NCBI RefSeq assembly: GCF_001465795.2
Contig: NZ_CP013659.2
Location: 3,131,001-3,195,000 of the forward strand
Source: Planococcus rifietoensis
GTDB lineage: Bacteria > Bacillota > Bacilli > Bacillales_A > Planococcaceae
Length of the DNA: 64,000 nucleotides
Reading direction: 5' to 3'
Below the pieces are notes generated by a model. It had not been told where the DNA came from and ran no database searches. It worked only from the letters and a program-made list of their open reading frames with translations. Shown here piece after piece: positions 24,079 through 41,690 of this stretch. Position numbers and translations under genes: made by a program. Positions within the stretch are counted from its first letter, which is position 1. The number at the start of each line of letters is the position of its first letter.

Positions 24079-24192
24079 GTAGAGTTACCCGATGCGCTTC
24101 AGCAACTTTTCCCCAATCACTATGCTTTTTCGGCATAAAGATCTTTTTAAGCAAGCTTATAGAACTAGTCTATAGTATTTTTCCCCTCACTC

Positions 24193-24325
24193 TAGCTGAT
24201 GAGAATGGAGGCGGCGACTCCTGCGGGAACAGCGCGAGCTGAAGACCCTGGACTGAGCGCAGCGAGGGAAGCGGCTGAAGCCGTGCCCGCGGAAAGCGTC
24301 CGCCGCAGTGAGCATCAGCGGCTCT
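24193..24325 (+). repeat. GC-rich imperfect palindromic repeat (type A)
   Basis: Nested stems are visible: GCTGATG with CATCAGC, GGCGGCGAC with GCGTCCGCC, and GCGGG with CCCGC. The same phrases recur at 13062-13175 (inverted) and 42958-43145. The 601 bp between htrC and walJ (23789-24389) hold this element, the two-hairpin repeat, and the walJ terminator; no gene is seen there. Confidence 0.65.
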
Positions 24326-29984: not shown

Positions 29985-30480
29985 GTTCTAGAGGCGTAAA
30001 CGCCTGGCGATGATAGCGAGGGATTTTGTGTAGACGTATTTCTTTGTGCTAATTAAGCATCTTATTGGTCTTCGCCGCCCTGCTTGGGGTTGGCCTCTTG
30101 CCATAAGCCAAGAAGAACACTTGGCTTACGGCTTCGGCTCACCCCTTTACGCTGTGCGGCTGAGAGATTTCGTTGATTCAGGTGCGTTTAAATAGATATG
30201 CTTCTGTACGAGTTGCCGGCTAGCGGGGGAATCGCTTCCCAGGGAATATGAGAAGATAGCGGGAGTTTGCGTGTTGACCTATTTCTGCATTCTACTTTTT
30301 CTTCCTCTTATTATTCGCCGCTCTGCTTTGGGTTGGCCTCTTGCCATAAGCCAGAAAGAACACCTGTCTTACGGCTTCGGCTCGCCCCTTTACGCTGTGC
30401 GACTTGAAGATTTCGTTGAGTCGAGTGCGTTCAGGTGGATCTGCTTCTATAACTAGTTGCCGGCTAGTGGGGGAATCACT
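29985..30480 (+). repeat. Two-unit cluster of the 246-bp repeat family
   Basis: One degenerate and one full unit of about 244 bp; the shared phrase CTTTGGGTTGGCCTC or near copies begin at 30073 and 30316, 243 bp apart. It is the same family and orientation as the six-unit array at 38923-40483. No convincing gene is present in the region 29848-30874, which holds this cluster and the GC-rich element after it. Confidence 0.8.
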
Positions 30481-30607
30481 TCCCGAGATGCGGCATCTGA
30501 CAAATAAGTGTTTGAACTGAAAATCATACTCTCTTCGATCCAAATGATATGAACTGCAAAATATGATGTATTTCCACACTTCCTATCGATTGGACAGAAG
30601 AAGTTTT

Positions 30608-37752: not shown

Positions 37753-38721
37753 TTACTTTCCTTTAGACTCGTGCGCCCGCTTGATCCAGCCCCGGACATC
37801 GAAGCCAAGATCCAAAATTCCGATGATGCTCGTAAACGACTGCAAAGGAAATGCAAGAACCGTCACAACGACCACCACCCAGCGGGGCCAGCCCTCTTGG
37901 TGGATATAGAAATGATAGAACGATACCCCCTGCAAGAACAGCAGGAACTGCAACAGCATCGAGGCATTGACGAAAATCAAATAAGCCATGGTCCCCTGCT
38001 CGAAATCCGACAGCAAGGACACCAAAATGACGATCAAATAATACCACAGTACGCTTTTCGGCAAGCGCATCTCGCGGAACGGCGGGAATTTCGGCACTTC
38101 GATGCCAAGCCGTTTCAAAATCGGCAACAGGATCAACAACAAGATCCACACCGTCGTAAATACCGACAAAATCAATAGCGTCGGCAACAAGGTCTCGAAG
38201 GTCAGCATGAACTGCGCCACAAGCTCCTCATATTCCTGCGTCGATTCCGACCCAAGCCGCTCCAGCCACGTACCGGCCTGTTCATACGAACTGCGCATCG
38301 TCGCCATGAATTCTTCCAGGAAATTAATCCCTAAAAAGGCGATAGCTGCCACGTACTGCACCATCAATGACACCAATAGCACGATACTTGAACCCATAAA
38401 CATGAACAATTTGCTTTTTTTATAATGGATCGACAGCCCAATCATGAGCCCCAGCGGAATGTGGATCAATGCCAAAGGCAAAGACAGCAATCCGCCGATC
38501 AGAAAGCTTAACACGACCCCGACCACTGCGACCAGCGCCGACGCCTTCACCGGATACTTGGCGCTATACCAAGCAATCGGCAATGCCAAAAACAAGGTAC
38601 TGATCAAACTCAGCACCGGTACATATACAGAAATAGCCAATAGGACGGCAAACAGCGCCGTCATCATGGCTCCATTCGTCAACTGACGTGTCTTTTGGTT
38701 AGGCATATCTGCGTTTTTCAT
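37753..38721 (-). CDS. yybS: YybS family (DUF2232) integral membrane protein
   Basis: The 322-residue protein has about eight hydrophobic segments and no soluble domain. DUF2232/YybS proteins sit upstream of gdpP in many Bacillota and resemble S-components of energy-coupling-factor transporters, but no substrate is established. It is 14 bp from gdpP and in the same direction, so it is the first gene of the yybS-gdpP-rplI-dnaC operon. The ribosome site is weak (GAAAGAAG). Confidence 0.9.
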   Translation of the reverse strand: MKNADMPNQKTRQLTNGAMMTALFAVLLAISVYVPVLSLISTLFLALPIAWYSAKYPVKASALVAVVGVVLSFLIGGLLSLPLALIHIPLGLMIGLSIHYKKSKLFMFMGSSIVLLVSLMVQYVAAIAFLGINFLEEFMATMRSSYEQAGTWLERLGSESTQEYEELVAQFMLTFETLLPTLLILSVFTTVWILLLILLPILKRLGIEVPKFPPFREMRLPKSVLWYYLIVILVSLLSDFEQGTMAYLIFVNASMLLQFLLFLQGVSFYHFYIHQEGWPRWVVVVVTVLAFPLQSFTSIIGILDLGFDVRGWIKRAHESKGK

Positions 38722-38922
38722 CTTCTTTCGGGTTTATTTCATCCGTATAATTGTACCATGATTCAATCTCCCGAACAAAAAAGGGAGGTTGCCTCACTGT
38801 ACATCTATCGACCCGTTTCGAGAAGAAAAAAGTTCCTGCCCTCTGGCAATAGCCGTCTATAGAAAATCATTATCGCTGATTCGACAGAGGATGGAAATAG
38901 TAGATGGAAATTAAAATGTGGG

Positions 38923-40483
38923 AATCGCTTCCTGGATATGCTTGAAGAAAATAGTGAGAGTTTACGTGTTGAAGTGTTTCAGCATTCTATTTGTGCTTCA
39001 TCTTACGCTTCACCGCCCGGCTTTGGGTTGGCCTCTGGCAGTAAGCCAAGAAGAACACTTGTCTTACTGCTTCGGCTCACCCCTTTACGCTGGGCGGCTT
39101 GAAGATTTCATTGATGAGGGTGCGTTTAAATAGATCTGCTTCTGTAGGTGGTTGCCGGCTAGTGGGGGAATCGCTTCCCGGGACAAGGTTGAAGAAGAAA
39201 GTGAGAGTTTGCGTGTCGAAGCATTTCAGTATTCTACTTGTGCTTTAGCTTATTATTCGCCGCCCTGCTTTGGGTTGGCCTCTTGCCATAAGCCAATGAA
39301 CTAGCGAAAGGAAGTTGAGTCATTTCATTGGCGACGCATCTGCGTAGCAGATGTGGGAGCAAGGTGTTTGAGGTGATGCTTGAATAAACTTTTTATCTTC
39401 GGCATCGGCTCACCCTTGGCGCTCGGGGACTTAGTGATTTCATTGATTTGGGGCGAGGTTAATCTGAGCTACTTCTGTAAAAGTTGCCGGCTAGTGGGAG
39501 AATCGCTTCCCGGGATAAGTTTGGAGCAGCTAATGAGAGTTTAGGTGTTGAAGTGCTTCAGCATGCTGTTCATATTTTATCTTACTATTCGCCGCTCTGC
39601 TTTGGGTCGGCCTCTGGCAGTAAGCCAAGAAGGACACTTGTCTTACTGCTTCGGCTCACCCCTTTGCGCTGGGCGGCTTGAAGATTTCATTGAATGGGGG
39701 GCGTTTAAGTAGATTTGCTTCTGTACGAGTTGCCGGCTAGTGGGGAAATCGCTTCCCGGGATAAGTTTGAAGTAGATAGTGAGAGTTTAGGTGTTGAAGT
39801 GCTTCAGCATGCTATTCATATTTCATCTTATTATTCGCCGCCCTGCTTTGGGTTGACCTCTTGCCATAAGCCAGGAAGAACGCCTGTCTTACGGCATCGG
39901 CTCACCCTTGGCGCTGGGCGGCTTGGTGATTTCATTGATTGAAGTGTGTTTAAGTAGATTTGCCTCTTTATTTAGTTGCCGGCTAGCAGAGAATCGCCTC
40001 CCGGGATAAGGTTGAAGTAGATAGTGAGAGTTTAGGTGTTGAAGTGCTTCAACATGCTATTCATATTTTCATCTTGTTATTCGCCGCCCTGCTTTGGGTT
40101 GACCTCCTGCCATAAGCCAGGAAGAACGCCTGTCTTACGGCATCGGCTCACCCTTGGCGCTGGGCGGCTTGGTGATTTCATTGATTGAAGTGTGTTTAAG
40201 TAGATTTGCCTCTTTATTTAGTTGCCGGCTAGCAGAGAATCGCCTCCCGGGATAAGGTTGAAGTAGATAGTGAGAGTTTAGGTGTTGAAGTGCTTCAGCA
40301 TGCTATTCATATTTCATCTTATTATTCGCCACCCTGCTTTGGGTTGGCCTCTGGCAGTAAGCCAAGAAGGACACTTGTCTTACTGCTTCGGCTCACCCCT
40401 TTGCGCTGGGCGGCTTGAAGATTTCATTGAATGGGGGGCGTTTAAGTAGATTTGCTTCTGTACGAGTTGCCGGCTAGTGGGGA
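38923..40483 (+). repeat. Tandem array of six ~246-bp units
   Basis: Unit boundaries taken at AATCGCTTCC or AATCGCCTCC fall at 38923, 39169, 39500, 39747, 39992, 40238 and 40484, so periods are 246, 331, 247, 245, 246 and 246. The second unit is longer because of an inserted element. Every unit has CTTTGGGTTGGCCTC or GACCTC, a hairpin, GGCTCACCC, and TTGCCGGCTAG. Neighbouring units at 39747 and 39992 are near-identical. The whole region 38722-40905 has no convincing gene. Confidence 0.9.
39293..39362 (+). repeat. Two-hairpin repeat element, copy 2, inside the array
   Basis: CCAATGAA (39293-39300) pairs with TTCATTGG (39324-39331), then GCGACG leads to CATCTGC-GTA-GCAGATG (39337-39353) and TGGGAGCAA. 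It replaces most of the hairpin in the second array unit; similarity to copy 1 continues to about 39395. Confidence 0.7.
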
Positions 40484-40616
40484 AATCGCTTCCCTGGATG
40501 CAGTGTCTGGCACGTTGGTGGATTAGAACTAACTAGCCTCTCTAAATCAAAGATGACTTCAGCTGAAAAACAGGAAGCATTTCCACATTTTCTGTCGAGT
40601 GAACAGAAAAAAATTC

Positions 40617-40765
40617 CTTCCCCTCTAAAACTGGAGACGGAGTGAAAGGGGGCTGACGCCTGTGGGACCGTGCGGGCTGGCGAGACAAACGTGGCGCGCA
40701 CTTTGCGGCACGTTGGCTCAACACCCGCCCCACGGCAAGCAGCCCCCTGAAACGAAGTCGAAAAG
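40617..40765 (+). repeat. GC-rich structured element (type C), copy 2
   Basis: This is the partner of 30608-30765. Nested pairs include GCGGGC with CCCGC, and ACGTG with CACGT. It follows the array end by about 130 bp, the same order as at the other cluster. Confidence 0.75.
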
Positions 40766-40871
40766 CGGAAGCTTTTCCAATCACTTCTTTCTCCATTCCC
40801 TCCCTCCAGTTACAATCTTTACGATGTAATCTTAACTTTTCCAATACAGTCAACTTCCCAAAGCATATAAA

Positions 40872-40897
40872 AAAGAGGCCGGTTTCCCGGCCTCTTT
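40872..40897 (-). terminator. Terminator of the rpsF-ssb-rpsR operon
   Basis: AAAGAGGCCGG pairs perfectly with CCGGCCTCTTT around four bases, with a T run on the minus strand, eight bases after rpsR. Confidence 0.95.
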
Positions 40898-40905
40898 GGA
40901 CAATC

Positions 40906-41142
40906 TTATTTTTCTTCCGCTACGAACGGTAGAAGTGCCATGATACGAGCGCGTTTAACTGCAATTGTCAAACGACGTTGCCATTTAGCGCTTGTGCCCG
41001 TAACACGACGTGGCAAAATTTTGCCTCGCTCAGAAATGAATTTCTTAAGCAAATCAGTGTCTTTGTAGTCGATGCGTGTAATGTTGTTTGAAGTGAAATA
41101 ACAAACCTTTTTACGCTTCTTGCCTCCGCGACGTGGTGCCAT
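40906..41142 (-). CDS. rpsR: 30S ribosomal protein S18
   Basis: S18 binds S6 and 16S rRNA on the small-subunit platform. The 78-residue protein has the basic start [15 protein letters not shown] and conserved [14 protein letters not shown] and RRVTGT. It carries one cysteine in KVCYF rather than a full zinc set. It closes the rpsF-ssb-rpsR operon and is near-universal in this order. Confidence 0.98.
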
Positions 41143-41195
41143 ATCGAATTACCTCCCTCATTTTCAGATTTTCTATTCGCTGATGGGCGCCTGGT

Positions 41196-41690
41196 TTAGA
41201 ACGGCAGATCGTCGTCCGAAACTTCGATCTTCCCGCTTCCGCTTGAAAACGGATCGTCATCTACACGAGTATTGTTTTGCTGACTTGGACTAGACGGTTG
41301 GTTCTGTTGATAAGACGGCTGCTGTCCATACGAGCGATCGTTTGAACGATCCCCAGATCCGGAGTTGGCGCTTTTCGGTTCAAGGAATTGAACGCTGTCC
41401 GCCACCACTTCCGTCGTATAAACGCGCTTGCCATCTTGACCCTCGTAGCTGCCAGTCTGAATGCGGCCTTCGACACCGGCGAGACTTCCTTTTTTGAGGA
41501 AATTCGCTGTGTTTTCAGCCTGCTTGCGCCAAACGGTACAATTGATAAAATCTGCTTCGCGTTCACCTTGCGCATTGGAGAATGTCCGGTTTACAGCAAG
41601 TGTAAAACGAGCCACCGCCGCTCCGCTTGGCGTGTAACGAAGATCAGGATCTTTTGTCAGTCTTCCGACCAATACAACCCGGTTGATCAT
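41196..41690 (-). CDS. ssb: Single-stranded DNA-binding protein
   Basis: SSB coats single-stranded DNA in replication and repair. The 164-residue protein has an OB-fold (about 1-105) starting [21 protein letters not shown], a flexible Gln/Ser-rich linker (about 115-150), and the acidic tail DDDLPF that recruits partner proteins. It lies between rpsF and rpsR, the standard primary ssb. Confidence 0.98.

Follow-up and report, generated by a model that had tools for sequence, protein, structure and literature searches.

In Planococcus rifietoensis, the array in the gap between yybS and rpsR is genuine, and it belongs, as a locally amplified member, to an extragenic repeat that is conserved in structure, restricted to the family Planococcaceae and apparently undescribed. 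On the reading that we favour, at a probability of about 0.55, it is a non-coding extragenic palindromic repeat of the kind known as REP/BIME or bcr in other bacteria, family-restricted, inserted here in the ancestor of a species group and amplified locally since then. All coordinates given below refer to the window, that is, the whole stretch of 64,000 nucleotides of chromosome that was analysed, unless another sequence is named.

In the window, Tandem Repeats Finder found 4.5 copies of a 246-bp period over 39396-40499 (87% matches), and an iterated nucleotide profile resolved six units of about 246 bp each at 38952-40498, five of them complete and the second one interrupted; the regular six-unit tandem array of ~246 bp seen in the first-pass annotation is thus present. 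The features that bear on the argument are the following:

38952-39183, plus strand: unit 1 (profile; hairpin covariance-model match 39005-39116)
39200-39515, plus strand: unit 2 (profile pieces 39200-39296 and 39396-39515, split by an insertion)
39532-39761, plus strand: unit 3 (profile; hairpin covariance-model match 39584-39695)
39777-40006, plus strand: unit 4 (profile; hairpin covariance-model match 39830-39940)
40022-40252, plus strand: unit 5 (profile; hairpin covariance-model match 40076-40186)
40268-40498, plus strand: unit 6 (profile; hairpin covariance-model match 40321-40432)
40499-40810, plus strand: array tail (tail profile positions 2-337), of a kind common to 33 of the 44 clusters
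40648-40747, no strand assigned: second hairpin (H2) within the tail (arms read from the sequence; covariation in aligned tails)
38722-38790, minus strand: yybS upstream block, conserved, which bounds the ancestral gap on the left (matches 16 of 16 outgroup gaps that reach yybS)
40872-40897, minus strand: intrinsic terminator downstream of rpsR, which bounds the ancestral gap on the right (seen in 15 of 16 outgroup gaps)
30014-30488, plus strand: another cluster of the repeat, made of two units with the same tail behind them (profile, covariance model and tail profile)

The regularity of the array holds for unit starts that lie 245-248 apart, with junctions of 15-16 nt between units (profile), and breaks down between units 2 and 3, whose starts are 332 apart because unit 2 carries an insertion of ~99 nt at about 39297-39395, near the hairpin tip. 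This insertion bears a small palindrome of its own, and motifs like it also occur in other clusters and at the yybS-rpsR locus of two relatives (L229 and L230). In the same way, the statement that adjacent units are nearly identical is true of units 4 and 5 (96%), but the other near-identical pair, units 3 and 6 (97%), is not adjacent, and the remaining pairs among the five complete units are 80-89% identical. That the array is non-coding is supported, since none of the open reading frames of at least 60 aa that touch it exceeds 75 aa, and a coding repeat was rejected on this ground; the tail holds a 103-aa frame on the minus strand, and no tRNA-like gene was found in the 64-kb window. NCBIfam models identify the surrounding genes as that of the replicative helicase, rplI, rpsR, ssb and rpsF, and the protein that had been labelled YybS has no NCBIfam match and a Pfam match to DUF2232. 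The positions of dnaA (56875) and dnaN (58389) place the replication origin near 56.5 kb of the window, and in 2-kb steps the GC skew is negative at 56-58 kb and positive at 58-60 kb.

From an evolutionary perspective, the gap can be compared across the genus. By BLAST with one unit, 14 of 46 Planococcus genomes are rich in the window's subtype (26-50 matches), and the 13 of these that gave an rpsR locus form what we call the species group, a grouping by match count and rpsR identity; their rpsR is 97-100% identical to that of the window, against 84-89% in the others. All 13 species-group loci (L226-L238, our own included) hold at least one unit between yybS and rpsR, with 1 to 4 complete hairpins in the 1.5 kb beside rpsR. 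An assembly artefact, which the first-pass annotation had named as a finding that would refute its view and for which nothing speaks except the repetitiveness itself, has a negligible chance of being right, as the same gap is occupied, with differing unit numbers, in 13 of 13 loci. Among the 17 outgroup loci (L239-L255), a unit was found in L251 only. The outgroup gaps, compared in 16 loci because L252 is cut before yybS, measure 144-374 nt in 13 cases, and the other three are longer, at 412 nt (L254), 571 nt (L253) and 800 nt (L251); the yybS upstream block (42-84 nt) is present in all 16 and the rpsR terminator in 15 (L248 being the exception), at 78-93% identity. Since the outgroup gaps keep these two features, the array and its tail were inserted between them, and the first-pass claim that a conserved gene order is interrupted has to be given up: the order is unbroken and the array lies within the gap between the upstream block and the terminator. 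On the best reading, the insertion took place in the ancestor of the species group.

Other positions were compared with two complete relatives, G015 and G019. For at least 35 of the 44 clusters of our genome, the orthologous interval of one or the other bears units, often in a different number; the count allows 700 nt on either side, a few of its flank matches are to repeats, and eight clusters lie outside it. Such sharing would be expected of old insertions under selection and also of slow mobility. Most stretches of the relatives were picked because they contain a match; eight were fetched by projected position alone, and these position-only intervals contained units for three of four own clusters in G015 and one of two in G019. 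Three intervals (one in G015, two in G019) are without a unit and could reflect losses or missing insertions: cluster C1:1082245 has no unit in its G015 interval, the G019 interval opposite cluster C1:2270024 is empty, and the two unit-less intervals that were aligned within the species group are both much diverged. Over 128 units from three genomes, mean identity is 84.7% within a cluster, 78.1% between orthologous clusters, 72.5% between unrelated clusters of the same genome and 72.6% between those of different genomes. The local amplification or homogenisation proposed for the array is therefore upheld, and it acts on insertions that are mostly shared and old.

The repeat is dispersed through the whole chromosome. 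BLAST with one unit gave 69 genomic matches (40 of 51 candidates being scored), and the hairpin covariance model gave 86 at E <= 0.01, the last four of them weak or partial, which make up 44 clusters on the stretches fetched. The array had at first been considered as possibly a special locus near the origin, a reading that was rejected because it is one cluster among 44. More than one profile match is found in 35 of the 44 clusters, a split unit being counted twice. Units are spaced by 246-248 in many clusters of our genome and by 215-217 in others, by 237-239 and 216-218 in some clusters of G015, by ~155 in other Planococcus and by ~208 in G197, of another genus (g17). In a second genome of that genus (G186, with 128 hairpin matches), some neighbours are inverted, about 200 nt apart, and others direct, whereas the arrays of the window's species group are direct. 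Overall, tandem arrangement is common, and neither period nor orientation is fixed.

The element extends beyond the units on one side. A shared tail (profile of ~345 nt), mostly with the second hairpin H2, follows the array 3' on the same strand in 33 of the 44 clusters, and the 250-nt 5' flanks of the 44 clusters yielded no two that match each other at E <= 1e-4 on the plus strand. Of 43 tail matches in the stretches fetched, 41 have a unit no more than 800 nt away, a proportion that, these stretches being mostly chosen around clusters, is no measure of lone tails. A weak tail-like match (E 3.1e-6) was seen at 24142-24304, 5.7 kb from any unit, and H2 may thus also occur alone. A partial tail match was found in three of eight stretches of other Planococcus, seven of which hold the hairpin, and in two of 23 stretches of other genera; it shares the strand of the units in four of these, about 300 nt behind them in L287 and L296 and at a larger distance in L289 (about 1.3 kb) and L290 (about 0.7 kb), and is on the opposite strand in L273. 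The two-part layout is clear in the window's species group and suggested outside it.

With regard to taxonomic spread, the hairpin was detected in all 46 Planococcus genomes searched. P. citreus DSM 20549 is one named strain that carries the repeat. The search of other Planococcaceae that had been recommended found it in 89 of 261 family genomes and 5 of 19 genera with the first model (E <= 0.001), and in 99 of 261 and 6 of 19 genera with a broader one (E <= 1e-5). The order-level search covered the same 261 genomes, and in two samples of the class the matching genomes (11 of 299 and 20 of 398) all belong to the window's family, under filters strict enough that weak copies can be missed. One unit matched no phage record and a single plasmid record among 72,556, NZ_CP025126.1 of Planococcus sp. 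MB-3u-03 (L299), a 7-kb linear "plasmid" with three unit matches and chromosome-like genes that is probably a chromosomal fragment; carriage by phages or plasmids was rejected on these counts.

The clusters are also distributed unevenly with respect to genes. Sixteen of the 44 lie in convergent gaps, 27 in tandem gaps (in 19 the genes run against the element, in 8 with it) and one in a divergent gap. Of the remaining gaps of 60 nt or more in the stretches that hold them, 5 are convergent, 90 tandem and 30 divergent; for all these counts, genes came from a simple hexamer model and stretches were chosen around clusters. A terminator-like site stands ahead of the first unit in 15 of the 24 genes that run towards the 5' side of the element (8 of 300 for shuffled 110-mers), and within 140 nt of the stop in 13 of the 35 genes that face the tail.

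These features recall, in the first place, the REP/BIME elements, which are described as dispersed extragenic palindromes, single or clustered and then sometimes tandemly reiterated, located mostly in convergent or unidirectional gaps near the 3' ends of genes, with a palindrome of 20-40 bp and super-families tagged by GTAG or CGTC (PMC3733652, whose main text contains no word that starts with Planococc or Firmicutes). As far as that description goes, the Planococcus repeat is likewise dispersed, extragenic, clustered and mostly confined to convergent or tandem gaps, and it is REP-like in a wide sense, with 44 dispersed clusters, a single divergent gap and hairpin covariation. It differs by its palindrome, ~88 nt and 29 pairs long instead of 20-40, by units in direct tandem, spaced by about 155-248 bp and accompanied by a second hairpin, by the lack of a conserved GTAG or CGTC tag and, in our own genome, by not lying beside the gene for the REP-associated tyrosine transposase (RAYT). 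In three alignments, GTAG is found within 5 nt ahead of the stem in 10 of 50, 13 of 48 and 4 of 41 rows, and an unpaired CGTC at the palindrome end in 0 of 50, 0 of 48 and 0 of 41, the script having left 1, 1 and 28 rows unmatched. Membership of a tagged REP super-family was dismissed because no tag is conserved and the palindrome is too long, and a REPIN/RAYT system because the repeat does not flank this genome's RAYT gene. In size class and in restriction to one group of Bacillales, it resembles, as far as they are described, the repeats bcr1-bcr18 of the Bacillus cereus group, which are interspersed, 100-400 bp long and mostly chromosomal, with tens of copies of bcr1 per genome (PMC6542083); it belongs to another lineage, and its tandem arrays and tail seem to have no counterpart in the account of bcr given there. 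The array shares regularly spaced repeats with CRISPR, but CRISPR has repeats of 24-48 bp and unique spacers where we find diverged units of ~230 nt, junctions of 15-16 nt and no unique spacers, and a CRISPR array was rejected on unit and junction length. The first-pass statement that no described family is recognisable holds: at gathering thresholds Rfam gave no match in the 64 kb, at E <= 10 the best score was 18.2 bits against a cut-off of 50, which sets aside a known RNA, and no description of the repeat was found in open-licence papers of PubMed Central.

The fold shows strong compensatory change. Each unit of ~230 nt contains an imperfect palindrome of ~88 nt with 29 pairs, as read from 51 aligned units and from 49 hairpin cores, a diverged subtype among the latter. 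In these 49 sequences, 92.8% of cells pair, and 100 cells with a double change were counted against 33.6 +- 5.9 after shuffling (0 of 500 shuffles as high) and at most 19 in slid controls. Across genera, 68 distinct rows from our genome, other Planococcus and other genera, in an alignment fitted to the model, gave 314 double-change cells against 101.2 +- 7.7 shuffled and at most 66 slid. H2 behaves alike, with 65 double-change cells in 31 aligned tails against a shuffled mean of 19.6 and a maximum of 29 in 300. Such covariation alone is no proof of function as RNA, because DNA-level quasi-palindrome correction during replication could keep the arms complementary.

On this basis, the reading as a REP- or bcr-like repeat would have the hairpins acted on by a process linked to replication or to single-stranded DNA, which disperses the copies, while slippage or unequal recombination lengthens the arrays unit by unit; copies would survive only where promoters and operons stay undisturbed. 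The conserved fold would then most likely be kept because a dispersal or replication enzyme reads the hairpin as DNA, and any effect on neighbouring transcripts would be secondary. Against this reading, we identified neither a mobilising enzyme nor a target duplication, and the conservation of sequence and pairing across genera exceeds what would be expected of a decaying selfish repeat.

The strong covariation of both the hairpin and H2, together with the placement at gene ends, could also be explained if the units were transcribed as structured RNA, as 3' UTR elements or as a multi-unit non-coding RNA that stabilises transcripts, stops read-through or binds a protein. The plus strand folds more stably than its complement in 51 of 51 units (mean -80.0 against -64.2 kcal/mol), which could mean RNA, but the plus strand also allows more G.U pairs. 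The wobble counts favour neither strand clearly: G.T against A.C cells number 73 to 42 in the 49 rows and 72 to 35 in the 68 rows, and, once a single pair that is G.T in 47 of our own 49 rows is left out, 26 to 42 and 44 to 32. Moreover, over 38600-41200 no sigma-70-like site is seen on the plus strand (one on the minus strand; shuffles 2.6), the terminator-like sites counted above stand behind 15 of 24 genes on the 5' side and 13 of 35 on the tail side, and Rfam gave no match. A structured RNA is thus possible, and on balance doubtful. With comparable reserve, we consider a Planococcaceae-wide two-part element, made of tandem hairpin units (H1) and the downstream H2, that might be selected as a unit and act at gene ends, for instance as a boundary of transcription or replication or as a multi-domain RNA, in which case it would be unlike any described family of repeats or RNAs; we put this forward tentatively.

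Two further explanations fare less well. The arrays could be chromosome-structure sites that bind a nucleoid, condensin or topology protein, as 32 of the 44 clusters lie in the chromosome half around dnaA (p 0.0037) and 31 are oriented against the replication fork (p 0.0096). However, the orientation may be a by-product of gene context, the bias towards the origin half could be one of old insertions in conserved regions, and the units keep no fixed phase, being spaced by anything from about 155 to 248 depending on cluster and lineage; this role is unlikely. Few clusters were seen near the expected replication terminus. Even less credit can be given to a REPIN-like element moved by the genome's own RAYT. 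A single Y1 transposase gene is present, assigned to RAYT by NCBIfam (83.5 bits against a cut-off of 80), and relatives of it are found in 124 of the 261 family genomes, by our own count in 57 of the 89 that carry the hairpin and in 67 of the 172 that lack it, an association that is weak at best and confounded by ancestry. The gene (L286:1080-2345, at C1:2,169 kb) is flanked by several copies of a different repeat, of GTCCCTGTGCAC type, direct and inverted, and its 3.3-kb locus holds no match to the hairpin or the tail; 32 of the 89 hairpin-bearing genomes have no RAYT match at 1e-20, and the scarcity of GTAG before the stem (10 of 50 rows) also argues against it. With weak co-occurrence and other repeats at its flanks, the RAYT was discarded as mobiliser.

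To return to the favoured reading of a family-restricted palindromic repeat, Planococcus and its relatives offer an extragenic palindrome family of the Bacillota whose empty sites can be read and whose orthologous arrays differ in unit number in many species, with covariation across genera and a two-part architecture. Such a family lends itself well, as a natural test case, to asking how REP-like repeats disperse, expand in tandem and persist, and whether it is as DNA or as RNA that their fold counts.
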